Shown here: positions 2-27,726 of the stretch, piece after piece
Layout: every line of letters begins with the position of its first letter
How positions within the stretch are numbered: the first letter of the stretch is position 1
DNA from: Candidatus Rokuibacteriota bacterium
Lineage (GTDB): Bacteria; Methylomirabilota; Methylomirabilia; Rokubacteriales; CSP1-6
Assembly: GCA_003220225.1 (NCBI GenBank)
Contig: QHRU01000049.1
Coordinates: 85,430-117,906, forward strand
Length of the DNA: 32,477 nucleotides
Direction of reading: 5' to 3'
Translations under genes and position numbers: made by a program
The notes under the pieces: generated by a model
The model's input: only the letters and a program-made list of their open reading frames with translations
Told to the model about the DNA's origin: nothing
Databases searched by the model: none

Positions 2-823
2 ACGCGTCTGGCCCTCAAGCTGGGCGAGATCGTCGTCACCGAGGCGGGCTTCGCGAGCGACCTCGGGGCCGAGAAGTTCCTCGACATCAAGTGCCGCACG
101 GCGGGGCTCGTGCCGTCGGTGGCCGTGATCGTGGCCACCGTGCGCGCGCTCAAGATGCACGCCGGGGTGGCGTTGACGGAGCTGCCGGGGGAGGACGTCG
201 GCGCCGTGCGGCGCGGCTGCGACAACCTCGCCAAGCATGTGGAGAACGTGCGGCTCTTCGGGCTGGCGCCGGTGGTCGCGCTCAATCACTTCACCGGCGA
301 CACCGACGCGGAGGTGGCGGCGGTCCTCGAGACGTGCCGCGGCTGGGGCGTGCCCGCGGAGATCTCGCGCGGCTGGGCCGAGGGCGGGGCGGGCACGACG
401 GATCTCGCGCAGATGGTCCTCGACACGATCAAGGGCGCCGACCGCACGGCGTTCCGCTTCCTCTATCCCGACGACCTGCCGCTCGAGCGGAAGATCGAGG
501 TCATCGCAACGCAGGTGTACGGCGCCGCCGAGGTTCGGCTGCAGCCCGCGGCGGCGCAGAAGCTCGCGCGCTGGCAGACGATGGGCCACGGGCGGCTGCC
601 GGTGTGCATGGCCAAGACCCAGAACTCGCTGTCCGACGACCCGAAGAAGACGGGCCGCCCGCGCGGCTTCACGCTCACCGTGCGCGACGCGCGGCTGTGC
701 GCCGGCGCCGGCTTCGTGGTCGCCTACGCGGGCGACGTCCTCACGATGCCGGGGCTGCCGAAGGTGCCCGGCGCCGAGGGCATGGACGTGGACGCCACGG
801 GCCACGTCACCGGGCTCTTCTGA
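2..823 (+). CDS. fhs: Formate-tetrahydrofolate ligase, C-terminal part (5' end outside window)
   Basis: The enzyme makes 10-formyl-tetrahydrofolate from formate, ATP and tetrahydrofolate in cytoplasmic one-carbon metabolism. The open frame enters from the left edge and supplies the last 273 residues of a protein normally about 550-560 long. The distal family blocks are clear: YPDDLPLERKIEVIATQVYG in the middle, and AGFVVAYAGDVLTMPGLPK near the end followed by the usual short tail ending in GLF. The N-terminal half with the glycine-rich ATP site lies upstream, so start and promoter cannot be judged. The stop is followed after 2 bases by the ATG of the TPR lipoprotein, so the two are probably cotranscribed. 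No frame damage was seen. Identity is near certain; the physiological direction cannot be told from this window. Confidence 0.96.
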   Translation, partial: TRLALKLGEIVVTEAGFASDLGAEKFLDIKCRTAGLVPSVAVIVATVRALKMHAGVALTELPGEDVGAVRRGCDNLAKHVENVRLFGLAPVVALNHFTGDTDAEVAAVLETCRGWGVPAEISRGWAEGGAGTTDLAQMVLDTIKGADRTAFRFLYPDDLPLERKIEVIATQVYGAAEVRLQPAAAQKLARWQTMGHGRLPVCMAKTQNSLSDDPKKTGRPRGFTLTVRDARLCAGAGFVVAYAGDVLTMPGLPKVPGAEGMDVDATGHVTGLF

Positions 824-825
824 GG

Positions 826-1575
826 ATGCGGCGCGCGAGCGGGATCGCGCAGACGGCACTGGTCGTCGCGTTCCTCGCCACGGCCGTGAGCGGTTGTGAG
901 CAGGGCGGCCCGGCGTCGACGTCGCCCGCCTCGACGGCAGCGACGAAGGCCGCGGGCTCGCTGAGGGCGCGCGCCGACGAGCTGAGCCAGCGCGGGCAGT
1001 ACGAGGAAGCGCTTGCCGCGTACCGGGAGGCGCTGCGGCAGGAGCCGAACGACCTCGCCCTCCGCTACGCCGTCGCCGTCACCCTCGCATCCCTGAACCG
1101 TCGCGCCGAGGCGACCGAGGCGTACCGGTGGGTGTTCTTCAACGGTCTGCCGGGATCGGAGCTCGTCGAGAAATCCGAGACGTGGCTGCGTGCCGCCGGC
1201 GCCCTGGCGACGACGACCGAGCCGGTCCCCGACAAGGCGATCGAGAAGACCGCGACCGACACGCGAATCCGCGGCCACATCACGTGGGCCAACGTCGATC
1301 CCGGACGGCCGGCGCCGCGCGTCCACCTGCGGCTCGAGGGCACCGACGCGAGCAACAAGGGGACGGTCTACAACACCGTGGCCAGCTTGAACGCCGACTA
1401 CGAGTTCGCCTCCGTGCCGCCGGGCTCCTACCGGCTCACCGCTCAATCGCCGCTGATCGCCGTACGCTTGTGGGAGCTGAACGTCACGGTCGAGGAAGGC
1501 ACCGCCACCGTCGTCGACCTCAGCGAGGCCTCGAGCGTCGCCCCGGGCACGTCCTTTGCCGTGAAACCTCGCTGA
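826..1575 (+). CDS. TPR lipoprotein with C-terminal carboxypeptidase-regulatory-like domain
   Basis: A 249-residue protein of unknown exact role. The N-terminus is a lipoprotein signal peptide (residues 1-23) with lipobox VSGC, so Cys24 is the likely lipidation site and the protein is membrane-anchored on the outer side. Residues about 48-110 look like one or two TPR units (RADELSQRGQYEEALAAYRE, then an alanine-rich helix pair). Residues about 150-225 look like a beta-sandwich of the carboxypeptidase-regulatory/CNA-B type (VHLRLEGTD, YEFASVPPGSYRLTA). It has the same two-part plan as the lipoprotein at 2797-3519 and is probably its paralogue. The ATG is 2 bases after the fhs stop, with GAGG lying too close to it to be a good ribosome site, so coupling to fhs is likely. 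It converges on the 1585-2763 gene. Confidence 0.8.
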   Translation: MRRASGIAQTALVVAFLATAVSGCEQGGPASTSPASTAATKAAGSLRARADELSQRGQYEEALAAYREALRQEPNDLALRYAVAVTLASLNRRAEATEAYRWVFFNGLPGSELVEKSETWLRAAGALATTTEPVPDKAIEKTATDTRIRGHITWANVDPGRPAPRVHLRLEGTDASNKGTVYNTVASLNADYEFASVPPGSYRLTAQSPLIAVRLWELNVTVEEGTATVVDLSEASSVAPGTSFAVKPR

Positions 1576-2763: not shown

Positions 2764-2796
2764 CCGCGGCGCCGCGCTCAGGGTGCCGGTGTGGGA

Positions 2797-3519
2797 TCAG
2801 CTCGACTTGGGGAAGTCGTCGCGCGTCTTGAGACTGTTGTCGGGGCCGAGCTCGATCAGGGCATCCTCGCCGGGCCGCAGCACGACCTTGAGACGCCATT
2901 TCGGGGTGCCCACGTTGTCGTCGGTCATCTTGTACGTGCCCGCCGGAATCCTCTCGAACTTGTAGTTGCCCTCGCGATCGCTCCGCACGTGGAAGCTCAT
3001 TCGCTTCGACGTGCCGTCCTCCTCGAGGGCATAGAGATGGATCTGAGCGCGCTTGAGCGGCTGCGTGCCCTGACCTTCGTCCCAGACGATGCGCCCGTGC
3101 ACGCCGCTGTCACCGACTCTCTCGTCCCTGACCGCCGTGTCGGCGACGGCAGCACCCGCGCGAGCCGCGCTGCGGCTGCGTGCGCCGGCCAACCAGTCGC
3201 GGGCCACGCGCGCCTCGTCGGACGTGACGGCTGCGTGAGCGACCACCCATTCGAACTCGGTCATCGCCTCGTCCCGTCGGTCCAGCCACGAGCTGGCGAT
3301 GGCCAGACGGTAGTGGAGGAGGAGATCGTCCGGGCTCTTCTGGATGGCGACTCGGTAAAGGGAGGCGGCGGTGCCCCAGTCCCGCTGCTCGAAGGCTCTG
3401 TGGCCCGCGGCGGCGTGATCGACCTCCGCCGTCGGCGGCGCTGACGGGGCGGACCGCTGCTGGCAGCCCGCCGCGGTCAGGGCGATGATGGCGAGCAGGG
3501 CGAGGCCGGCGAGTCTCAC
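2797..3519 (-). CDS. TPR lipoprotein of the pilin-like locus
   Basis: A 240-residue predicted lipoprotein. The GTG start at 3519 overlaps the stop of the upstream PilX-like gene as GTGA, so it is translationally coupled; a longer open frame upstream lies inside the pilin gene and is not used. The signal peptide is residues 1-18 with lipobox TAAGC (Cys19). Residues about 45-120 contain a TPR-like pair (RAFEQRDWGTAASLYRVAIQ). Residues about 135-215 resemble a carboxypeptidase-regulatory beta-sandwich (YKFERIPAGTYKMTDDNVG). The architecture matches the lipoprotein at 826-1575. Its position directly behind a PilX-like gene suggests a role in assembling or anchoring the pilin-like complex, as TPR lipoproteins such as PilF do, but there is no close resemblance to PilF. 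A decayed start of a second copy lies at 4717-4848. Confidence 0.83.
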   Translation of the reverse strand: MRLAGLALLAIIALTAAGCQQRSAPSAPPTAEVDHAAAGHRAFEQRDWGTAASLYRVAIQKSPDDLLLHYRLAIASSWLDRRDEAMTEFEWVVAHAAVTSDEARVARDWLAGARSRSAARAGAAVADTAVRDERVGDSGVHGRIVWDEGQGTQPLKRAQIHLYALEEDGTSKRMSFHVRSDREGNYKFERIPAGTYKMTDDNVGTPKWRLKVVLRPGEDALIELGPDNSLKTRDDFPKSS

Positions 3520-4709
3520 GTGCCGGAGACCTCCTTGTACGTTCCGGGCTTCACAAACCAGTTCTGCGGGATCGTCCCGCCGCCGGTGCGTACGGACGGG
3601 CAATTATACGTGATCGGCGCGTTGCCGATGTCATCGGTGTCGACGTTCGTCGAGGCCGCATCGACCCGATTCGTCGAGATCACCGCGCCCGTGATGCTGC
3701 CGGCGCCCGCCCCGCGCAGCGACACATCGTTCTGCGCGTAGATCAGTCCGTTCATCGTGATGTTGCCGCTGATATCGATAGTACCGGCGACGACGAGCCA
3801 GCCGTTCCAGCCCGAGCTCCAGTTGCCGCGGACATTGACGGTGATGAGGTCGCTGCTGGGCGAGCTGTTCGTCAGCACGTTACCGGACGGCGTATCGACG
3901 AAGACGATGCCGTTCGGCGGCGGCGACGTCCACTGCTGGCTCCCCTGGTAATACGTCCCGTTCTGTCTCGCGAGCGACTTCAGCATCGCGATGTCGCTGT
4001 CGCTGAACTGGAAGCTGCCGAAGCTGGAGTTCGGCTGGTTCGGAGCGACGTCCGATCCGCCCGCCGGCCCCGTGATGTTCGGCCGGCCGTTCGTGTTGAT
4101 CGGCCCCTGCGCGTAAGCGGCGGCCGTCGGCGTGACGCCGGCGCAGTACTGCGCGCCCTGCGCCGTCGAGGCGGTGATCGACGCCGAGCCGCCGACCTGG
4201 ATCTGGGTGCTCGTTCCCGGCGGCTGCTCGCCGCCCGCGCACACCGCGCACGGCGGGTCGAGGAACTTCACCTTCGTCACGGTCGTCTGGATCTTCTTGA
4301 TCGCGATCGGGTTGACGTTGTTGGGCACGTAGCCGACGGCGGTGATGTTCCGCTCGTTGGCCGCGCCGCCGTTGGTGACGGTGACGATGAAGCCACCGAC
4401 GCCCGCCGCCACGTACTGCGAGCCGTCGTACGGCACGGGCACCGGGTTGGGTAGCGGATCCGCCAGGGCGCCGGTGGCGGCGGGGTTGGCCTCACCTTTC
4501 GTCAGCGCCCACAGCGCGCGCTCGAGGCCCGACTCCGCGATGGCCCGCGCCTGCGCGTTCGCCATCTGGTTGCTGGCGATGAAGGGCTCGGTGGAGGTGA
4601 AGGCCAGGACGGCCACGGTCAGCGCGGTGATCAGCGCCATGATGATCAGCGTCATCGGCACCACGATGCCGGCGTCGGATCCGTGTCGGCGTGCGGGTGA
4701 GGCGTTCAT
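3516..4709 (-). CDS. PilX-like minor pilin / pilus assembly protein, copy 1
   Basis: A 397-residue protein whose N-terminus fits PilX-type minor pilins: a short basic leader, a glycine at 14, a transmembrane helix at about 15-37 and the family stretch NAQARAIAESGLERALWAL (residues 51-69). The rest is an exported domain ending in Gly/Asn-rich beta repeats (about 305-345). Four cysteines are shared by all three paralogues here: Cys154 and Cys157 (DPPCAVCAGGE), Cys189 and Cys370, suggesting disulfides. It is about twice the length of ordinary PilX. GAGGAACCT precedes the ATG, and the same sequence stands before copy 2. It lies downstream of the decayed remnant and overlaps the lipoprotein start by 4 bp. 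PilX proteins prime or cap type IV pili and pseudopili; whether this builds a pilus or a secretion pseudopilus cannot be told. Confidence 0.85.
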   Translation of the reverse strand: MNASPARRHGSDAGIVVPMTLIIMALITALTVAVLAFTSTEPFIASNQMANAQARAIAESGLERALWALTKGEANPAATGALADPLPNPVPVPYDGSQYVAAGVGGFIVTVTNGGAANERNITAVGYVPNNVNPIAIKKIQTTVTKVKFLDPPCAVCAGGEQPPGTSTQIQVGGSASITASTAQGAQYCAGVTPTAAAYAQGPINTNGRPNITGPAGGSDVAPNQPNSSFGSFQFSDSDIAMLKSLARQNGTYYQGSQQWTSPPPNGIVFVDTPSGNVLTNSSPSSDLITVNVRGNWSSGWNGWLVVAGTIDISGNITMNGLIYAQNDVSLRGAGAGSITGAVISTNRVDAASTNVDTDDIGNAPITYNCPSVRTGGGTIPQNWFVKPGTYKEVSGT

Positions 4710-4716
4710 AGGTTCC

Positions 4717-4848
4717 TCAGGCGACGACGAGGGGCAGCGTGTTGACGCCGCCGATCATCCTCGCGGCGACGGACGGCGCTGACCGCTGCTGGCGGCCAGC
4801 AGCGGTCAGAATGATGCCGAGGGAGCGCGACGGCCGCGCGAGTCTCAG
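4717..4848 (-). pseudogene. Fused remnant of a TPR-lipoprotein start and a PilW-like 3' end
   Basis: This 43-codon frame lies between PilX-like copies 2 and 1. Its first 28 codons match the signal peptide of the intact lipoprotein at 2797-3519: LTAAGRQQRSAPS here against LTAAGCQQRSAPS there. The lipobox Cys is now Arg, and the GTG start that overlapped the pilX stop has become CTG. The rest (IGGVNTLPL) matches IGGVNALVL inside the PilW-like protein, and then comes the same TGAGGAACCTATG junction that introduces the next pilX. The nucleotide match extends through both halves. The simplest history is a tandem duplication of pilW-pilX-lipoprotein followed by a deletion that joined the lipoprotein 5' end to the pilW 3' end. 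It is very unlikely to make a working lipoprotein. Confidence 0.82.
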
Positions 4849-6041
4849 GATGTCCCGGGGACCTCTTTGTACGTTCCGGGCTTCACGAACCAGCCCTGGG
4901 GGATGGTGCCGCCCCCGGTGCGCACGGACGGACAGTTGTAGGTGATCGGCGCGTTCCCGATGTCCTCCGTGTCGACGTTCGTCGAGTTCGTGTCCACGCG
5001 GTTCGTCGAGATCACCGCGCCCGTGATGTTGCCACCGCCCGTGCCGTGCAGGGTCACGTCGTTCTGCGCGTAGACGAGCCCGTTGAGCGCGGTGTTGCCG
5101 CTGATCTGGATCGAGCCCGCCACGACGAGCCAGCCGTTCCAGCCCGAGGGCCAGTTGCCGTGGACGTCCACGCCGATCATGTCGCTGTTCGGCGAGCTGT
5201 TCGTCAGCGGGTTGCCGGACGGCGTATCGACGAAAATGATGCCGTTCGGTGGCGGTGACGACCAGCTCTGGTTGCCCTGGTAATACGTCCCGTTCGCCTT
5301 CGCGAGCGACTTCAGGGTGACCATGTCGCTGTCGGTGAACAGGAACGGGGCGAAGTTGGCCGCCGGCTGGTTCGTGAGGATGTTCGAGCCGCCCGACGGC
5401 CCTGTGATGCTCGGGTTGCCGTTCGTGTTGACCGATCCCGCCGAATAGGTGGCCGCCATCGGCGTGACGCCGGGGCAGTATTGGGCGCCGTTCGCCGTCG
5501 AGGCGGTGATCGACGCCGAGCCGCCCACCCGGACGTTCGTCGGGTCGCCTGGCGGCGCCTCGCCGCCCGCGCACACCGCACACGGCGGATCCAGCCACTT
5601 TATCTTGGTCACCGTCGTCTGGATCTTCTTGATCGCCACCGGGTTGACGTTGTTCGGCACGTAGCCGACGGCGGTGATCGTGCGCTCGTTCACGACGCCG
5701 CCGGGACCGACCGTCACGATGAACCCGCCCACGCCCACGGCCACGTACTGCGAGCCGTCGTACGGCGCGGGCACCGGCGCCGGCAGCGGGTCCGCGAGTG
5801 AGCCGGCCGCGCCCGGGACCGCGTCACCCTTCGTCAGCGCCCAGATCGCGCGCTCGACGCCCGATTCCGCGATCGCCCGCGCCTGGGCGTTCATCATCTG
5901 GTTGCTGGCGATGGCGGGCTCGGTCGAGGTGAAGGCCAGGAAGGCGACCGTCAGCGCCGTGATCAAGCACATGATGATGAGCGTCATCGGCAGCACGATG
6001 CCATCCTCTGATCCGCGTCGGTGTACGAGTGAGGCGTTCAT
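4845..6041 (-). CDS. PilX-like minor pilin / pilus assembly protein, copy 2
   Basis: A 398-residue paralogue of the proteins at 3516-4709 and 7315-8514, collinear along its whole length. It has the basic leader, the transmembrane helix at about 15-37, NAQARAIAESGVERAIWAL, the DPPCAVCAGGE cysteine pair, the later single cysteines (QYCPG and YNCPS) and the C-terminal beta-repeat region ending VKPGTYKEVPGTS. Its ATG overlaps the stop of the PilW-like gene as ATGA, and GAGGAACCT serves as ribosome site, so it is coupled to pilW. Its own stop overlaps the former start of the lipoprotein remnant (now CTGA), mirroring the live pilX1-lipoprotein junction. It is probably a membrane-extracted minor pilin or pseudopilin. 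The divergence from copy 1 is spread over the whole protein, so the duplication is not very recent. Confidence 0.85.
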   Translation of the reverse strand: MNASLVHRRGSEDGIVLPMTLIIMCLITALTVAFLAFTSTEPAIASNQMMNAQARAIAESGVERAIWALTKGDAVPGAAGSLADPLPAPVPAPYDGSQYVAVGVGGFIVTVGPGGVVNERTITAVGYVPNNVNPVAIKKIQTTVTKIKWLDPPCAVCAGGEAPPGDPTNVRVGGSASITASTANGAQYCPGVTPMAATYSAGSVNTNGNPSITGPSGGSNILTNQPAANFAPFLFTDSDMVTLKSLAKANGTYYQGNQSWSSPPPNGIIFVDTPSGNPLTNSSPNSDMIGVDVHGNWPSGWNGWLVVAGSIQISGNTALNGLVYAQNDVTLHGTGGGNITGAVISTNRVDTNSTNVDTEDIGNAPITYNCPSVRTGGGTIPQGWFVKPGTYKEVPGTS

Positions 6042-6595
6042 AGGTTCCTCAGGCGAACGCGGTCCTCGAAGACCGCCCGCTGGTTCGCCAGATTGTACCC
6101 GCCCAGGCCCGTGGCCTGGGGTTGAGTGGTGACCTGGATGTCCACCACCCGCGCGTTGGCCGCCGTCGTCGTCAGGACGTTGGTGTTGTCGTAGTAGGTC
6201 AGGACGAGCGCGTTGACGCCGCCGATCAGCGTCTCGGGCTGCGCCGCCGCCGGCACGGGGTTGGTCTGGTTGCGCTGCAGGTTCGTGCCGGCGAGGGAGT
6301 ACTGGACCGTGACCGTCGCGCCCGTGTCGTCGATGTACTGGAAGGTCACGCTCGTCGCGCTACACGCCGTCACGACTGAGCCCGAGCGCAGGTCGTGCGC
6401 CATGCGGTCGACCGCCGTCCGCGCGTTTTGCTGCACCTCGACCCGTCCGGAGCCGTACTGGTAGGCGTTCTGGCCCCCCTGCAGCGCCACGAACGTGCCC
6501 GCCAAGACGACCCCGACCACCGCGCAGGCGATCAGAAGCTCGGTGAGGGTGAATCCGCTCTGATTCCTGAGGGTCGTCAGCCTGGTGGTCTTCAT
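6038..6595 (-). CDS. PilW-like type IV prepilin
   Basis: A 185-residue prepilin-like protein. The N-terminus gives a prepilin peptidase site, QSG|FTLTELL (cleavage after Gly14, Glu at +5), followed by a hydrophobic helix to about residue 35. The segment GRVEVQQNARTAVDRMAHDL is typical of PilW/PulJ-like minor pilins, followed by a beta-rich globular domain. The start at 6595 places the cleavage site normally; a much longer frame runs upstream through the neighbouring genes and is not real. It begins 5 bases after the PilV-like stop, and its own stop overlaps the next PilX-like ATG. The order V-W-X matches minor pilin operons of type IV pili. An internal piece of a second copy survives in the 4717-4848 remnant. 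Confidence 0.88.
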   Translation of the reverse strand: MKTTRLTTLRNQSGFTLTELLIACAVVGVVLAGTFVALQGGQNAYQYGSGRVEVQQNARTAVDRMAHDLRSGSVVTACSATSVTFQYIDDTGATVTVQYSLAGTNLQRNQTNPVPAAAQPETLIGGVNALVLTYYDNTNVLTTTAANARVVDIQVTTQPQATGLGGYNLANQRAVFEDRVRLRNL

Positions 6596-6600
6596 GGTGT

Positions 6601-7146
6601 TCACCGTTGGGCGAGGATCATGCTGACGGTCACGGTCTTGGCGGCTGCCGCCGTCGTCGTCGACGTCAACGGCTGGAAGGTCACGGCCACCGTGACCACG
6701 CGCATGCCGGAATCGGTGATGCCCGCGCACGCCGTGACCCCGCAGTCGGTGATGCGCGTGGTGCGCGAATAGCCGTTGAAGCCGGTGATGGCGGTCGAGC
6801 TCTGGTCCGCGAACCACGTCAGCGCACCGCCCGAAGCCACGTTCACCGCGCCGAGCGTGCACGACTTGCCGGCGGGGACGGTCGGTGCGGAGGTGGGGTT
6901 GGCCGAGACGCCGAGGCAGTCGTTGTCGGGAGTCGAGGTCCACGGGATGTTCTTCGCCTCTTCCATCTTCTGGTTGGCGAGGAACGTCGCGGTGGACGTC
7001 TGGTTGCCGCCCTGGACCGCGGACGTCGAGTACGGGATCACCGAGAGCAGCGCGACGAAGGCGATCGTGATGATGACCGCGGCCAGCAGCACTTCGGCGA
7101 GCGTGAACCCTGCTTCGGACCGGCGGACCCTTCCCTTTGGAGACAT
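6601..7146 (-). CDS. PilV-like type IV prepilin
   Basis: A 181-residue prepilin-like protein with cleavage site EAG|FTLAEVL (after Gly13, Glu at +5) and a hydrophobic helix to about residue 35. The following QKMEEAKNIPW is typical of PilV/PulI-type minor pilins, where a methionine-rich helix end leads into the globular domain. Four cysteines in the C-terminal half could form disulfides. I chose the ATG at 7146, which gives a 13-residue leader and sits 7 bases after a good -10 box (TACGAT). An in-frame ATG at 7164 would be upstream of the transcript start if that promoter is real. It lies downstream of PilX-like copy 3 with a 168-base gap and is followed by pilW after 5 bases. Confidence 0.87.
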   Translation of the reverse strand: MSPKGRVRRSEAGFTLAEVLLAAVIITIAFVALLSVIPYSTSAVQGGNQTSTATFLANQKMEEAKNIPWTSTPDNDCLGVSANPTSAPTVPAGKSCTLGAVNVASGGALTWFADQSSTAITGFNGYSRTTRITDCGVTACAGITDSGMRVVTVAVTFQPLTSTTTAAAAKTVTVSMILAQR

Positions 7147-7314: not shown

Positions 7315-8514
7315 TCAGGACGTCCCGGGCACGTCCTTGAACGTCCCCGGCTTCACGAACCAGCCCTGCGGGATCGTGCCGCCACCATCGCGCACGGCCG
7401 GGCAATTGTACGTGAGCGGCGCGTTGCCGATGTCGTCGGTGTCGACGTTCGTCGACGACGTGTCCAGCCGGTTCGTGGAGATGACGGCGCCGCTGATCCT
7501 GCCGCCGCCCGCGCCGTGCAGCGTCACGTCGTTCTGCGCATAGATGAGCCCGGTCAGGTTCATGTTGCCGCTGATCTGGATCGAGCCCGCCACCACGAGC
7601 CAACCGCTCCAACCCGAGCGCCAGTTGCCGTGGATGTCCACGCCGATGATGTCGCTGTCGGGCGAGTTGTTCGTGAACGGATTGCCGGACGGCGTATCGA
7701 CGAAGATGACGCCGTTCGGCTGCGGCGAGGTCCAGTGCTGGTCCCCCTGGTAGTACGTCCCGTTCGCCTTCGCGAGCGACTTCAGGATGGCCATGTCGCT
7801 GTCGGTGAACAGGAACGGAGCGAAGCTCGACGCCGGCTGGTTGGCGGCGATGGCGACCCCACCCGGCGGCGCCGTCAGGTCCGGGTGGCCGTTCGTGCCG
7901 ATGGAGCCTGATGCATAGGCGGCGGCCGTCGGCGTGACGCCGGCGCAGTACTGGGCGCCCGACGCCGAGGAGCCGTTGATCGAGGCCGAGCCGCCGATCT
8001 GGATCTGGCTCGCCGTTCCCGGCGGATTCTCGCCGCCCGCGCAGATCGCGCACGGCGGATCCAGGAACTTCACCTTGCTCACCACCGTCTGGATCTTCTT
8101 GATCGCGATCGGATTGGTGTTGTTGGGAACGTACCCGATCGAGGTGACGACCCGGTCGTTGCTCGCCGCGCCGTCGGCAACGGTCACGATGAAGCCGCCG
8201 GCGCCCATGGCGACGTACTGCGATCCGTCGTACGGCGCGGGCACCGGCGACGGCAGCGGATCGGCCAGCGCGCCCGTCGTGCCCGGGGCGGTCTCACCCT
8301 TCGACAGCGCCCAGATCGCGCGCTCGAGCCCCGACTCGGCGATGGCGCGGGCCTGGGCGTTCATCATCTGATTCATCGCGATGGATGGCTCGCTCACGGT
8401 GATGGCCAGGAAGGCGAGCGTGAGGGTCGTGAGCAGGCCGAGCACGATGAGCGCCATGGGCAGCGCGATACCGCTCTCGGACGATCGGCGCCGCGACCCC
8501 AGTGAGCCTTTCAT
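7315..8514 (-). CDS. PilX-like minor pilin / pilus assembly protein, copy 3
   Basis: A 399-residue third paralogue of the PilX-like proteins at 3516-4709 and 4845-6041, first gene of the minus-strand pilin locus. It has the same parts: basic leader, transmembrane helix at about 15-37, NAQARAIAESGLERAIWAL, the cysteine pair DPPCAICAGGE, later cysteines in QYCAG and YNCPA, a Gly/Asn-rich beta region (NLTGLIYAQNDVTLHGAG) and the ending VKPGTFKDVPGTS. The ATG at 8514 has GAGGAACCC just upstream, nearly the same as the other two copies. Unlike them it stands before pilV, not after pilW, and no lipoprotein or remnant follows it. A promoter with a leader of about 57 bases is predicted upstream. Confidence 0.85.
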   Translation of the reverse strand: MKGSLGSRRRSSESGIALPMALIVLGLLTTLTLAFLAITVSEPSIAMNQMMNAQARAIAESGLERAIWALSKGETAPGTTGALADPLPSPVPAPYDGSQYVAMGAGGFIVTVADGAASNDRVVTSIGYVPNNTNPIAIKKIQTVVSKVKFLDPPCAICAGGENPPGTASQIQIGGSASINGSSASGAQYCAGVTPTAAAYASGSIGTNGHPDLTAPPGGVAIAANQPASSFAPFLFTDSDMAILKSLAKANGTYYQGDQHWTSPQPNGVIFVDTPSGNPFTNNSPDSDIIGVDIHGNWRSGWSGWLVVAGSIQISGNMNLTGLIYAQNDVTLHGAGGGRISGAVISTNRLDTSSTNVDTDDIGNAPLTYNCPAVRDGGGTIPQGWFVKPGTFKDVPGTS

Positions 8515-11376: not shown

Positions 11377-11470
11377 ATGGGGGGCCCCGACATGGCCCCC
11401 CAAACCCCCCAAGCGCTCGGGCCGCCCCGGCGCAGCCGTGACGGCCCTCGTTATCCCGACAGGCTCCTGA
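11377..11470 (+). repeat. Dual-hairpin intergenic repeat, copy a
   Basis: Hairpin 1 is a G6CC arm and a GGC6 arm around CCGACAT, followed by a second C6 tract. Hairpin 2 has arms around a GCA loop with an outer stem GGGCCG/CGGCCC. The 3' edge CGACAGGCTCCTGA ends exactly at the sthA stop codon (11471, minus strand) and is shared with the copy at 20408. The element lies between the convergent patatin-like gene and sthA. It may act as a two-way terminator or mRNA 3'-end structure, but there is no U-tract. Confidence 0.8.
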
Positions 11471-13265: not shown

Positions 13266-13269
13266 TAAG

Positions 13270-13355
13270 TGGGGGGCCCCGAAACGGGCCCCCCACACCC
13301 CCCCAGCGCTCGGCAGCGCCCCGGCGAAGCCGTGGCGCTCCTCGTCGCCGGCCGC
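13270..13355 (+). repeat. Dual-hairpin intergenic repeat, copy b
   Basis: Hairpin 1 here has a longer stem (G6CCC with GGGC6, loop CGAAAC) flanked by pairing GT and AC, followed by a C7 tract. Hairpin 2 has an AGCGCC/GGCGCT outer stem and a GAA loop. It lies between convergent genes (DUF2185 protein and SnoaL-like protein). The stem differs from the other copies but still pairs. Confidence 0.8.
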
Positions 13356-13368
13356 CCGGCGGCCTCCG

Positions 13369-19511: not shown

Positions 19512-20405
19512 ATGTCGGTCGAGTTTCGCGAGGAGCCCTGCCGCAGCGCGCTGAACCGCGTGCAGGGCATGCCCTTCAAGTGGTCGCTCAACCCGTACAT
19601 GGGTTGCGCCCACCGCTGCACGTTCTGCTACGTGCGCGGCTTCGAGCGGCGCGCGGACCGCCCGGCCGGCGAGGCGTATGGCCGCTCGGTCCGCGTGAAA
19701 GTCAACGTGGCCGAGGTGCTGCGCCGCGAGCTGGGGCGCAAGTCCTGGCAGCGCGAGGTCGTCGCCATCGGCGCCGCCACCGATCCCTACCAGCCCGCCG
19801 AGGGCCGCTATCGGCTCACGCGCGCCTGCCTCGAGGTCTTCGCCGATGCCCGCAGTCCGTTCAGCATCATCACGCGCGGCCCGATGATCGTGCGCGATCT
19901 CGACGTGCTCCGCCGCGCCGCGACGCGCGCCGAAGTGCACGTCACGTTCTCGGTCCCGACGCTCGACACGGAGATCTGGCGGCGGACCGAGCCCGGCACC
20001 GCGCCGCCGCGCCAGCGCCTGCGCGCGCTGCGGATGCTGATCGACGCCGGCATCGACGCGGGCGTCGGCATCGCCCCCGTGCTGCCGGGGATCTCGGACC
20101 GTCCCGAGCTGCTCGCGGACGTCGTGCGCGCCGCGCGCGACGCCGGAGCGACCAACGTCTGGTGCAACGTCCTCTATCTGCAGCCCGGTACGCGTGAGCA
20201 CTTCATGGAGCACCTGGCGCGCGACTGGCCGGAGCTGGTCCCGAGCTATCTCGCGCTCTACCGGCGGCCGTATCCGGGCCGCGCGACAACGGAGCCGGTG
20301 AAGGGCACCGTGGCCGCGCTCAAGAAGCGGTTCGGCGTCGCTGACCGCCGTGTCCGTCCGCTCGAGCCGTCGCCCGCCGCCGAGCAGCTCGCGCTCGCTA
20401 TCTAG
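19512..20405 (+). CDS. Radical SAM protein (SPL / Rv2578c-like)
   Basis: A 297-residue radical S-adenosylmethionine protein. The iron-sulfur cluster motif is CAHRCTFCY (Cys32, Cys36, Cys39; CX3CX2C), preceded by SLNPYMGC. Later marks are AIGAATDPYQPAEGRYRLTR and VTFSVPTLDTEIWRRTEPGT, as in spore-photoproduct-lyase-like proteins and the Rv2578c group. The reaction of this group is unknown; a DNA-repair role is only a family-level suggestion, although recQ follows on the same strand. The ATG at 19512 lies 7 bases after TATACT and has no normal ribosome site. The gene ends directly at the repeat element and hairpin array at 20408. Confidence 0.9.
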   Translation: MSVEFREEPCRSALNRVQGMPFKWSLNPYMGCAHRCTFCYVRGFERRADRPAGEAYGRSVRVKVNVAEVLRRELGRKSWQREVVAIGAATDPYQPAEGRYRLTRACLEVFADARSPFSIITRGPMIVRDLDVLRRAATRAEVHVTFSVPTLDTEIWRRTEPGTAPPRQRLRALRMLIDAGIDAGVGIAPVLPGISDRPELLADVVRAARDAGATNVWCNVLYLQPGTREHFMEHLARDWPELVPSYLALYRRPYPGRATTEPVKGTVAALKKRFGVADRRVRPLEPSPAAEQLALAI

Positions 20406-20407
20406 TA

Positions 20408-20687
20408 AATTGGGGGGCCCCGAAATGGCCCCCCAAACCCCCCAACCGCTCGTCGCGCCCCGGCGAAGCCGTGGCGCGCCTCGACCGCCCAACCGCTCGT
20501 CGCGCCCCGGCGAAGCCGTGGCGCGCCTCGACCCCCGCGCGCTCGTCGCGCCCCGGCGAAGCCGTGGCGCGCCTCGACCCCCGCACGCTCGTCGCGCCCC
20601 GGCGAAGCCGTGGCGCGCCTCGACCCCAACCGCTCGTCGCGCCCCGGCGAAGCCGTGGCGCGCCTCGATACTGCGACAGGCTCCTGA
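20408..20687 (+). repeat. Dual-hairpin intergenic repeat, copy c, with five tandem hairpin-2 units
   Basis: Hairpin 1 (20411-20433) has the C6 partner tract behind it as in the other copies. Hairpin 2 is then repeated five times: the 38-bp core starting CGCTCGTCGCGCCCCGGCGA begins at 20447, 20494, 20540, 20586 and 20631 (periods 47, 46, 46 and 45). The cores look identical, while the 7-9 bp linkers differ. Each core folds as CGCGCC/GGCGCG plus an inner stem with a GAA loop. The 3' edge CGACAGGCTCCTGA matches copy a. It fills the 338 bases between the radical SAM stop and the conserved start of RecQ; nothing else is recognisable there. Confidence 0.92.
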
Positions 20688-20743
20688 TACGTCTCTTCCG
20701 CGTCACGCTAGGCGGCGCGCGGCGCGTCGGCTATCATCGCCGC

Positions 20744-22591
20744 ATCATCCAGACGGAGTTCCTGCACGAGACGGTCCGACGCATCTGGGGTTATGATCGC
20801 TTTCTTCCGCTACAGCAGGAGGCGATCGAGGGTGTTCTCGCCGGCCGCGACTCGCTCGTCGTCCTGCCCACCGGCGGTGGCAAGTCGCTCTGCTACCAGG
20901 CGCCCGCCGCGCACCTGCGGCGTCTCGCTGTCGTCGTCTCGCCGCTGATCGCGCTCATGAAGGACCAGGTGGACGGCCTGCGCCAGGCCGGCGTGCCGGC
21001 GGCGATGGTCAACAGCAGCCAGACGCCGGCCGAGCGCGCGGCCGTCATGCGCGCCGTCGACGGCGGCGGCGTGCAGCTGCTCTACGTCGCGCCCGAGCGC
21101 CTGGTGATGGACGGGTTTCTCGAGCGCCTGCGGCGCGCGCAGCCGGCCTTCGTGGCGGTGGACGAGGCCCACTGCATCAGCCAGTGGGGCCACGACTTCC
21201 GGCCCGAGTACCGCCAGCTCCGCGTGATGCGCGAGGCGTTGGGCGCGCTCGCCGTCCACGCCTACACGGCCACGGCCACGCCGGCGGTGCGCGACGACAT
21301 CGTCGCCGAGCTGCGGCTGCGCAATCCGCTGGTCCTCGTCGGCTCCTTCGACCGCCGGAACCTCGTCTACCGCGTGCGCCCACGCACCGATCGCCTCGCG
21401 CAGGTGGTCGCCGCGATCAACCGGCACCGAGACCAGGCGGGCATCGTCTACTGCATTCGCCGCAGCGAGGTGGACGAGCTGACGGCGGCCCTCACGCGGC
21501 GCGGCTTCCGGGCGCTGCGCTACCACGCCGGGCTGATGGACGAGGAGCGCCGCGCCAACCAGGAGGCGTTCGTCAACGAGCGCGCCGACATCGTCGTGGC
21601 CACGGTCGCATTCGGCATGGGCATCGATCGCTCGAACGTGCGCTACGTGATCCATACCGGCATGCCGAAATCGCTGGAGCACTACCAGCAGGAGGCGGGC
21701 CGCGCCGGCCGCGACGGCCTGGAGGCCGAGTGCCTGCTGCTCGTCAGCGGCGGCGACTACGGCCTGTGGAAGTCGGTGCTGGCCCCCGACGGCGCGGAGC
21801 TCCCGCCGGGCGCGCTGCGCAAGCTGGGCGAGATGTACGCGTTCTGCCAGCAGGCGGTCTGCCGCCACCGCGCGCTGGTGACGTACTTCGGCCAGGCCTA
21901 CGAGCGCGAGGACTGCGGCGCGTGTGACGTCTGCCTCGGCGAGACGGTGCAGGGCGACGCCGCCTCGGACGCGGCCGTGCGCCTGCTCGAGGCCGTCGAG
22001 GCGCTGCGCGGCCGCTTCGGCGCCATCCACGTGGCCGACGTGCTGGTCGGCGCCGCGACGGGACGCATCGCGCAGCTGGGCCACGACCGCCTGGCGGCCT
22101 ACGGCGCGCTGCGCGGCGAGAAGAAGGCGCAGGTGCGCGCGTGGATCGACCAGCTGATGGCCCAGGGACTCCTCGCCCGGACGGAGGACGAGTACCCGAC
22201 CGTGACGCTGACGGAACGGGGCCGGGCGGTCCTGCGCGGCGAGGCGGCCGCGCCCGCGCTCACCAGCGCCGGCGCCGTGCGGGCCACGGCGGCGGATGCG
22301 GCGGAGGCGGCGGGCCGTGAGCGGGCCGCCCGCCCGACGCCAAACGGCGCCGGGGACGACCGGCCGCTCTTCGACGAGCTGCGCGGGCTGCGGCGGCGCG
22401 TGGCCGAGGAGCGCGGCGTGCCGCCGTATCTCATCTTCAGCGACGCCTCGCTCCGCGACATGGCGCGCCTGCGCCCGACGACGCTCGCGCAGTTCCGCGA
22501 GGTCAAGGGCGTCGGGGACTGGAAGCTCGAGACCTTCGGCGAGCGCTTCCTGGCCGTGGTCCGACACGCCGTCGCCGGCGTCCCCGACTAG
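20744..22591 (+). CDS. recQ: ATP-dependent DNA helicase RecQ
   Basis: A protein of about 615 residues that unwinds DNA 3' to 5' in recombination and repair. Domains in order: helicase core with Walker A TGGGKS (residues 43-48), VDEAHCISQWGHDFRPEY, then TVAFGMGIDRSNVRYVIH and QQEAGRAGRDG; RecQ zinc-binding region with Cys residues in FCQQAVCRH and CGACDVC; winged-helix region; HRDC domain at the C-terminus (SLRDMARLRPTTLAQFREVKG). The frame is open back to 20471, but between the repeat array and the conserved domain there is no in-frame ATG, GTG or TTG. I placed the start at ATC 20744, which lies 6 bases after a TATCAT box; CTG at 20762 or GTG codons inside the array (20471, 20564) are alternatives. 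Confidence 0.93.
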   Translation: MIQTEFLHETVRRIWGYDRFLPLQQEAIEGVLAGRDSLVVLPTGGGKSLCYQAPAAHLRRLAVVVSPLIALMKDQVDGLRQAGVPAAMVNSSQTPAERAAVMRAVDGGGVQLLYVAPERLVMDGFLERLRRAQPAFVAVDEAHCISQWGHDFRPEYRQLRVMREALGALAVHAYTATATPAVRDDIVAELRLRNPLVLVGSFDRRNLVYRVRPRTDRLAQVVAAINRHRDQAGIVYCIRRSEVDELTAALTRRGFRALRYHAGLMDEERRANQEAFVNERADIVVATVAFGMGIDRSNVRYVIHTGMPKSLEHYQQEAGRAGRDGLEAECLLLVSGGDYGLWKSVLAPDGAELPPGALRKLGEMYAFCQQAVCRHRALVTYFGQAYEREDCGACDVCLGETVQGDAASDAAVRLLEAVEALRGRFGAIHVADVLVGAATGRIAQLGHDRLAAYGALRGEKKAQVRAWIDQLMAQGLLARTEDEYPTVTLTERGRAVLRGEAAAPALTSAGAVRATAADAAEAAGRERAARPTPNGAGDDRPLFDELRGLRRRVAEERGVPPYLIFSDASLRDMARLRPTTLAQFREVKGVGDWKLETFGERFLAVVRHAVAGVPD

Positions 22592-23317: not shown

Positions 23318-23404
23318 CAGTGTCGAGGGGCGCCCCGGGTTCCCCGGGGCGCTCCGAGCGTTGGGGGGTGTGGGGGGCCATGTCGGGGCCCCCCACGCAC
23401 CACA
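23318..23404 (-). repeat. Dual-hairpin intergenic repeat, copy d (reverse orientation)
   Basis: Read on the minus strand it has hairpin 1 (loop CCGACAT, flanked by pairing GT and AC), a second C6 tract, then a hairpin 2 with a nearly perfect stem GCGCCCCGGG/CCCGGGGCGC around a GAA loop. The C/T mismatch conserved in the other copies is repaired here. It lies between the RDD gene and the convergent hydantoinase gene. Confidence 0.8.
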
Positions 23405-27441: not shown

Positions 27442-27726
27442 ATGGCGCGGTACGGCAAGAGCGCGGGCACGATGGTCAAGTCGGCGATGCGGCGGCGCAA
27501 GAGCGGCACGCTCAAGAGTGGGCGCAGCGGCAAGCGGGTGACCAGCCGCAAGCAGGCGACCGCCATCGGGCTCAGCGAGGCGCGCAAGAAGGACGCGCAG
27601 GTCCCGCGGCGCGACAAGCGCCCGACTAGTGACATGGGGGGCCCCGAAATGGCCCCCCATACCCCCCACACGCTCGGGGCGCCCCGGCAAAGCCGTGGCA
27701 CCCCTCGATACCCGACAGCCGACTAG
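27442..27726 (+). CDS. Small basic DUF6496-like protein with repeat-encoded tail
   Basis: A 94-residue very basic protein. The first 60 residues (ARYGKSAGTMVKSAMRRRKS, then GKRVTSRKQATAIGLSEARK) match the small Lys/Arg-rich family often labelled DUF6496, which may bind nucleic acid. Homologues end soon after the ARKK...VPRR stretch; here the frame continues for about 30 residues (from SDMGGPEMAPHTPH) that are wholly encoded by a copy of the dual-hairpin repeat, until TAG at 27724. The TAG supplied by the element edge at 27626-27628 is out of frame. AGGAGG lies 8 bases before the ATG. It is divergent from the 2OG oxygenase and convergent with the lactonase gene. Confidence 0.8.
   Translation: MARYGKSAGTMVKSAMRRRKSGTLKSGRSGKRVTSRKQATAIGLSEARKKDAQVPRRDKRPTSDMGGPEMAPHTPHTLGAPRQSRGTPRYPTAD
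27630..27720 (+). repeat. Dual-hairpin intergenic repeat, copy e
   Basis: Hairpin 1 (27636-27658) is flanked by pairing AT and AT, then comes the second C6 tract. Hairpin 2 has a GGGG/CCCC outer stem and an AAA loop. The edge CGATACCCGACAG resembles copies a and c. It lies between convergent genes and overlaps the 3' end of the DUF6496-like frame. Confidence 0.8.

Follow-up and report, generated by a model that had tools for sequence, protein, structure and literature searches.

Junctions of tandem segmental duplications, together with the gene remnants found at them, are known from bacterial operons. At such a junction the 5′ part of a downstream gene is newly joined to the 3′ part of an upstream one, and an intact copy of the duplicated gene lies on either side. 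Among minor pilins, the FimU-PilV-PilW-PilX clusters of Myxococcus xanthus have been multiplied three-fold (PMC7541494), and in E. coli template switching at quasipalindromes has been documented at the thyA hotspot and in lacZ reporters (PMC7202029). A literature search on the minor pilins of Rokubacteria returned no directly relevant paper.

The locus described here lies in a 32,477-nt stretch (the window) on contig C48 of the 6.03-Mb genome of a Candidatus Rokuibacteriota soil bacterium. The system resembles that of M. xanthus in its FimT/GspH-V-W-X gene order and in the presence of several clusters in one genome, but the M. xanthus clusters are complete with PilY1, whereas here it is mainly pilX alone that has multiplied, with a TPR lipoprotein gene (lip) in the cassette and no PilY1 seen adjoining (PMC7541494). 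On the minus strand the genes follow the order pilX3, pilV, pilW, pilX2, a 132-bp spacer, pilX1 and lip (Table 1), with pilX1 and pilX2 sharing 82% nucleotide identity. The name pilX rests mainly on gene order: the proteins score 17.2 and 19.3 bits against PilX_N (PF14341), below the curated Pfam cut-off of 25.5, and the genes occupy the PilX position in the FimT-PilV-PilW-PilX order, so that their place after pilV and pilW supports a PilX-like role. pilX3 stands ahead of pilV, where relatives carry a FimT/GspH-like gene, and no such gene was seen in the window locus. A plasmid search with positions 3400-6600 as query found no match.

Table 1. Genes of the minor-pilin locus and elements of the pilX2-pilX1 spacer, in window coordinates
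Feature	Position	Strand	Remarks
lip, TPR / CarboxypepD_reg lipoprotein gene	2797-3519	-	source of the head piece
pilX1	3516-4709	-	397 aa, intact, downstream of the scar; 78% aa identity to pilX2; dN/dS 0.37
pilW last codons TCGCCTGAGGAACCTATGA	4706-4724	-	overlaps pilX1 ATG; 19/19 identical to the pilW-pilX2 boundary
Stem-loop 2	4721-4764	-	20-nt arms, 17/20 paired, loop CAAC; MFE z -3.0 to -3.3
11 nt without source in pilW or lip	4725-4735	-	part of the 3′ arm of stem 2
Internal pilW fragment (IGGVN motif) TGATCGGCGGCGTCAACACGCT	4736-4757	-	21/22 identical to pilW 6207-6228
Breakpoint zone GTCGCCGCGAGG	4759-4770	-	assignable to neither lip nor pilW with certainty
lip head (lip′)	4771-4848	-	78 nt; length and frame as lip 3442-3519 up to the lipobox; CTG start; lipobox Cys to Arg
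Stem-loop 1	4779-4809		perfect 15-bp inverted repeat, 1-nt centre; RNA MFE -27.6 kcal/mol, z -7.2
pilX2	4845-6041	-	398 aa, intact, upstream of the scar; PilX_N match below cut-off
pilW-like minor pilin	6038-6595	-	source of the pilW pieces; N_methyl E 4e-8
pilV-like minor pilin	6601-7146	-	N_methyl E 3e-5; cassette order
pilX3	7315-8514	-	399 aa, third copy; 74% aa identity to pilX2; retains TTCGCCcGAGGAACCcATGAA from the pilW end

The spacer between pilX2 and pilX1 consists, in order, of about 78 nt from the start of lip, a 22-nt internal stretch of pilW and the 19 nt that end pilW. The preliminary description had recognised here a remnant joining the start of a TPR lipoprotein to pilW sequence between two pilX-like genes, and all of these elements lie where it placed them. 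Its expectation that the scar would align to lip better than chance was borne out, the DNA of the lip head giving a local alignment score of 97 against 33 +/- 5.5 (maximum 59) for 1000 dinucleotide shuffles, and the replacement of the lipobox Cys by Arg is confirmed by the aligned peptides (LTAAG[R]QQRSAPS in the scar, LTAAG[C]QQRSAPS in lip). Over 13 codons the reading frame is kept and five of the six differences are synonymous. The proposed change of a GTG start to CTG is upheld as to the CTG itself; its direction is not, with pilX2, pilX3 and a further pilX copy on contig C49 all ending in ..CCTGA, as against ..CGTGA in pilX1.

The pilW part had been read as the end of that gene, IGGVNTLPL, but this is an internal motif (LIGGVNxL in relatives); at up to two mismatches the 22-mer occurs in the whole 6.03-Mb genome only in the scar and at pilW 6207-6228. 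The true end of pilW lies in the final 19 nt of the scar, read in another frame (..RLRNL*), so the pilW part is two pieces separated by an internal deletion, about 130 bp of pilW being missing between them. This tail holds the presumed Shine-Dalgarno GAGG of pilX1 at 4715-4718, 5 nt before the ATG. As the preliminary description had noted, TGAGGAACCTATG stands at both pilX starts (4707-4719 and 6039-6051); it represents the final codons of pilW, and it loses its value as independent evidence for an ancestral array since it carries the apparent Shine-Dalgarno of pilX. It is retained, with changes, at every pilX copy, presumably because pilX uses a ribosome-binding site in the final codons of pilW, and within the scar only this ribosome-binding tail still has a clear job.

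Across 57 family genomes, with about 50 loci, the usual cassette is FimT/GspH-pilV-pilW-pilX-lip (L044-L047, L054, L056, L061, L077, L080 and L081), and a single unduplicated copy of it is found in L044-L047, L054 and L056. Tandem arrangements are frequent (L043, L048, L049, L076, L083 and L090): L049 is a whole-cassette tandem (F-V-W-X-F-V-W-X-lip), L076, L083 and L090 carry V-W-X tandems, L048 is X-X-X, and L043 is X-lip-X-lip, with an intact lip and no pilW between its pilX copies. In L063 the order is F-V-W-lip-X. pilX stands alone in many genomes, and the label of cassette or solo switches many times on the tree.

The genome holds four pilX copies, of which the window contains three and contig C49 the fourth. 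Together with a copy from AR29, a genome of the same genus, they form one clade (SH-aLRT 98), so the duplications are recent and date to roughly the level of the genus. All four copies of this genome are open and intact, with dN/dS of 0.36-0.47 and dS of 0.31-0.51, indicating that all four have been kept as genes. The AR29 copy is broken (L008 8001-9009), with part of its N-terminal segment missing and a frame shift. The extra copies have a pilW tail ahead of them without pilW: about 75 nt (score 89) for the C49 copy, a similar tail for the AR29 copy and about 20 nt for pilX3. Short tail-like ends, read by eye, precede the second pilX of L043 and that of L042, so these copies too probably carry a pilW tail only. 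Taken with these tails, the 11 nt of the lip start that close the C49 copy indicate that the spreading unit is a pilX-centred segment with its ends inside pilW and lip. A candidate similarity, CTGAGACTCGCG..AGGATG, is shared by the scar and the downstream end of the C49 copy; the match is very short, and it would make the C49 copy a possible descendant of pilX2 that arose after the scar had formed. No homologous pilX2-pilX1 spacer was found in two other genomes of the genus, AR29 and G002; the AR29 contig starts inside lip, so that the spacer region is absent from it, and the sole cassette of G002 is a diverged V-W-X-lip one.

Taken together, the junction, the monophyly of pilX and the many rearranged cassettes of the family support well a tandem duplication of a pilW-pilX-lip segment, and the 132-bp spacer is very probably its decayed junction. 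The pieces occur in the order expected between copies, close paralogues lie on both sides, and the unduplicated state is present in relatives. As in duplication junctions of other operons, the 5′ part of the downstream gene is joined to the 3′ part of the upstream one and the duplicated gene is intact on either side; unlike typical junctions, the pilW tail persists because it contains the ribosome-binding site of the gene that follows, and the lip head has become a perfect palindrome. The structure is well supported and of a known kind, with its surviving end explained by the overlapping gene layout.

For the number and order of events, we lean towards a single duplication over an array followed by a deletion. 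Its left breakpoint would fall within pilW, either at the IGGVN codons or upstream of them, and its right breakpoint within lip after roughly 28 codons, giving in one step pilW-pilX2-[lip head / pilW 3′ part]-pilX1-lip. A later loss of about 130 bp inside the pilW fragment would have followed, with drift of the remainder, while the last 19 nt would have been retained since a viable pilX copy must bring the pilW tail with its ribosome-binding site. The lip head may then have been turned into a perfect palindrome by template switching.

This last step concerns stem-loop 1, the longest perfect short-loop hairpin in the window. The homologous stretch of lip (3450-3480) pairs at 12 of 15 positions, compared with 15 of 15 in the scar, and beyond these two no further site in the genome comes within three mismatches. 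Scar and lip differ at four of the 31 bases; three of these differences complete the pairing and the fourth is the central base. Pairing-completing changes would arise by chance with a probability of 2.1e-5 for random sets of four changes, or 3.2e-4 for random third-position sets of three, values that belong to a test framed post hoc. The changes thus raise the complementarity of an existing imperfect inverted repeat, and template switching at a quasipalindrome would be the best account of stem 1. As in the E. coli quasipalindrome mutations, an imperfect inverted repeat appears to have been perfected by changes copied from the other arm; unlike those cases, the scar is compared across two paralogous sequences without an outgroup, and the changes sit on both arms (PMC7202029). 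The lipobox DNA of scar and lip is shared by no relative, hence there is no outgroup by which to polarise the palindrome, and the presence of changes on both arms implies either more than one template-switch event or the loss by lip of an originally perfect repeat.

The preliminary description had proposed an ancestral array of pilW-pilX-lipoprotein units with a deletion between two of them. The tandem copying stands, but the deletion step is not needed, as one duplication gives the same join directly. In the array version, a complete pilW-pilX-lip (or FimT-V-W-X-lip) array would have lost a second lip and pilW through a deletion joining lip at about codon 28 to pilW, a course of events that we consider possible but rather unlikely. 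Whole-cassette tandems do occur in relatives (L049, L076, L083 and L090), and L043 retains an intact internal lip in its X-lip-X-lip arrangement. The kept frame and mostly synonymous differences of the lip head could likewise point to a lip′ gene that was translated and working for a time; however, three of the five synonymous changes are those that make the palindrome, so palindrome correction explains them and the codon pattern is not decisive. The array also requires one event more than the single duplication, and in neither this genome nor AR29 does an extra pilX copy retain pilW sequence beyond the tail. Of the intact second pilW and lipoprotein that had been suggested as something to look for between pilX copies in relatives, L043 has the lip and no pilW, L049 the pilW and no lip. 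Neither a lip remnant in the L049 gap between units nor further pilW sequence in the L043 lip-X spacer gave an alignment above chance level. The family shows both kinds of product, which leaves the array model some plausibility beside the single duplication.

A different reading treats the spacer as a structured leader or processing element, in which stem 1 would protect or end the pilX2 message and stem 2 would mask the Shine-Dalgarno of pilX1. The whole spacer folds with an MFE of -75.9 against -60.5 +/- 4.5, stem 1 is unusually long for the window, and stem 2, which includes the 11 bases without known source and whose predicted extension pairs the pilX1 Shine-Dalgarno and may cover it, was matched in quality by only 6 of 2000 shuffles. 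A perfect 14-bp hairpin also follows directly on the pilX stop in AR29 (L008 9018-9048). To this reading a 13-codon frame, MIGGVNTLPLVVA, with its stop inside the Shine-Dalgarno, could be added as a possible coupling peptide, although GAGG touches the ATG of this mini-frame, which is poor spacing. The scar has no T-run or terminator-like site that would mark an intrinsic terminator, and an Rfam search of it matched no family. The folding evidence comes from a single sequence, and palindromes arise by template switching without selection. A leader or processing role is improbable, and it is a shade less probable again that a two-hairpin regulatory leader controls the relative amounts of the two PilX-like proteins, with one hairpin masking the ribosome-binding site that pilX1 would have inherited from pilW.

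That the 43-codon frame encodes a real small protein is hardly credible and was rejected: no stop interrupts it between the pilX2 stop and 4717, and in frame its residues match those of lip, but it has CTG instead of a start codon, has lost the lipobox Cys, passes from lip into pilW sequence and then leaves the frame of pilW, and has no counterpart in the 50-odd family loci. It is equally far-fetched that paralogous repeats were misjoined when the metagenome was assembled, for while relatives' contigs do break inside pilX (L041, L050, L055, L073 and L088), the scar pieces carry substitutions relative to lip and pilW that a chimeric join could not produce, and the longest exact match shared by the pilX copies is 33-53 bp. 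Of the outcomes that the preliminary description had held to speak against a scar, namely a frame conserved in relatives as a small protein and alignments at chance level, neither was found.

The duplication junction illustrates, clearly and in a form that can be dated, how gene overlap limits the possible remains of a duplication. Because the presumed ribosome-binding site of pilX comes from the end of pilW, and that of lip from the end of pilX, a cassette gene that is duplicated or deleted leaves the final codons of the gene next upstream. The same rule for leftovers applies in another genus: in L063 (8300-8356) pilW is followed by the terminal ~35 nt of a pilX that has been lost (score 66; shuffle maximum 30) and then by lip, with pilX downstream of lip, a second, independent scar of the same style. 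The conversion of a gene scrap into a perfect palindrome also provides raw material for regulatory RNA, and the copies as a whole show how a family of pilX-like genes has multiplied and spread in Rokubacteria.

Several further features surround the locus. A dispersed repeat of intergenic type, about 75 bp long, occurs in the window at 11378-11458, 13266-13363, 20405-20517, 23323-23395 (reverse) and 27635-27712; some copies contain tandem units of ~45 bp and one a hairpin, GTGGGGGGCCCCGAAACGGGCCCCCCAC. It has 59 scored matches in the genome, from 414 first-look candidates, is also present in AR29 (L008 85-194), and appears REP/MITE-like. On the opposite strand from the cassette, window 862-1542 (+) encodes a second TPR lipoprotein, 28% identical to lip. 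It more closely resembles the lip found in the diverged V-W-X-lip cassette of G002, of the same genus, and is a putative orphan from another cassette type. The contig that carries this G002 cassette also matches the RecQ-type helicase gene of the window at 92% (L103 1-947 against 20686-21632); here that gene is situated ~12 kb from the cassette, and a relocation is possible. In AR29, lip is directly followed by the gene of window 2-823 (L102 1-1330 against window 2-824 and 2792-3292), which implies that window ~830-2790, containing the second lipoprotein and a 392-aa gene, is either an insertion here or a deletion there.
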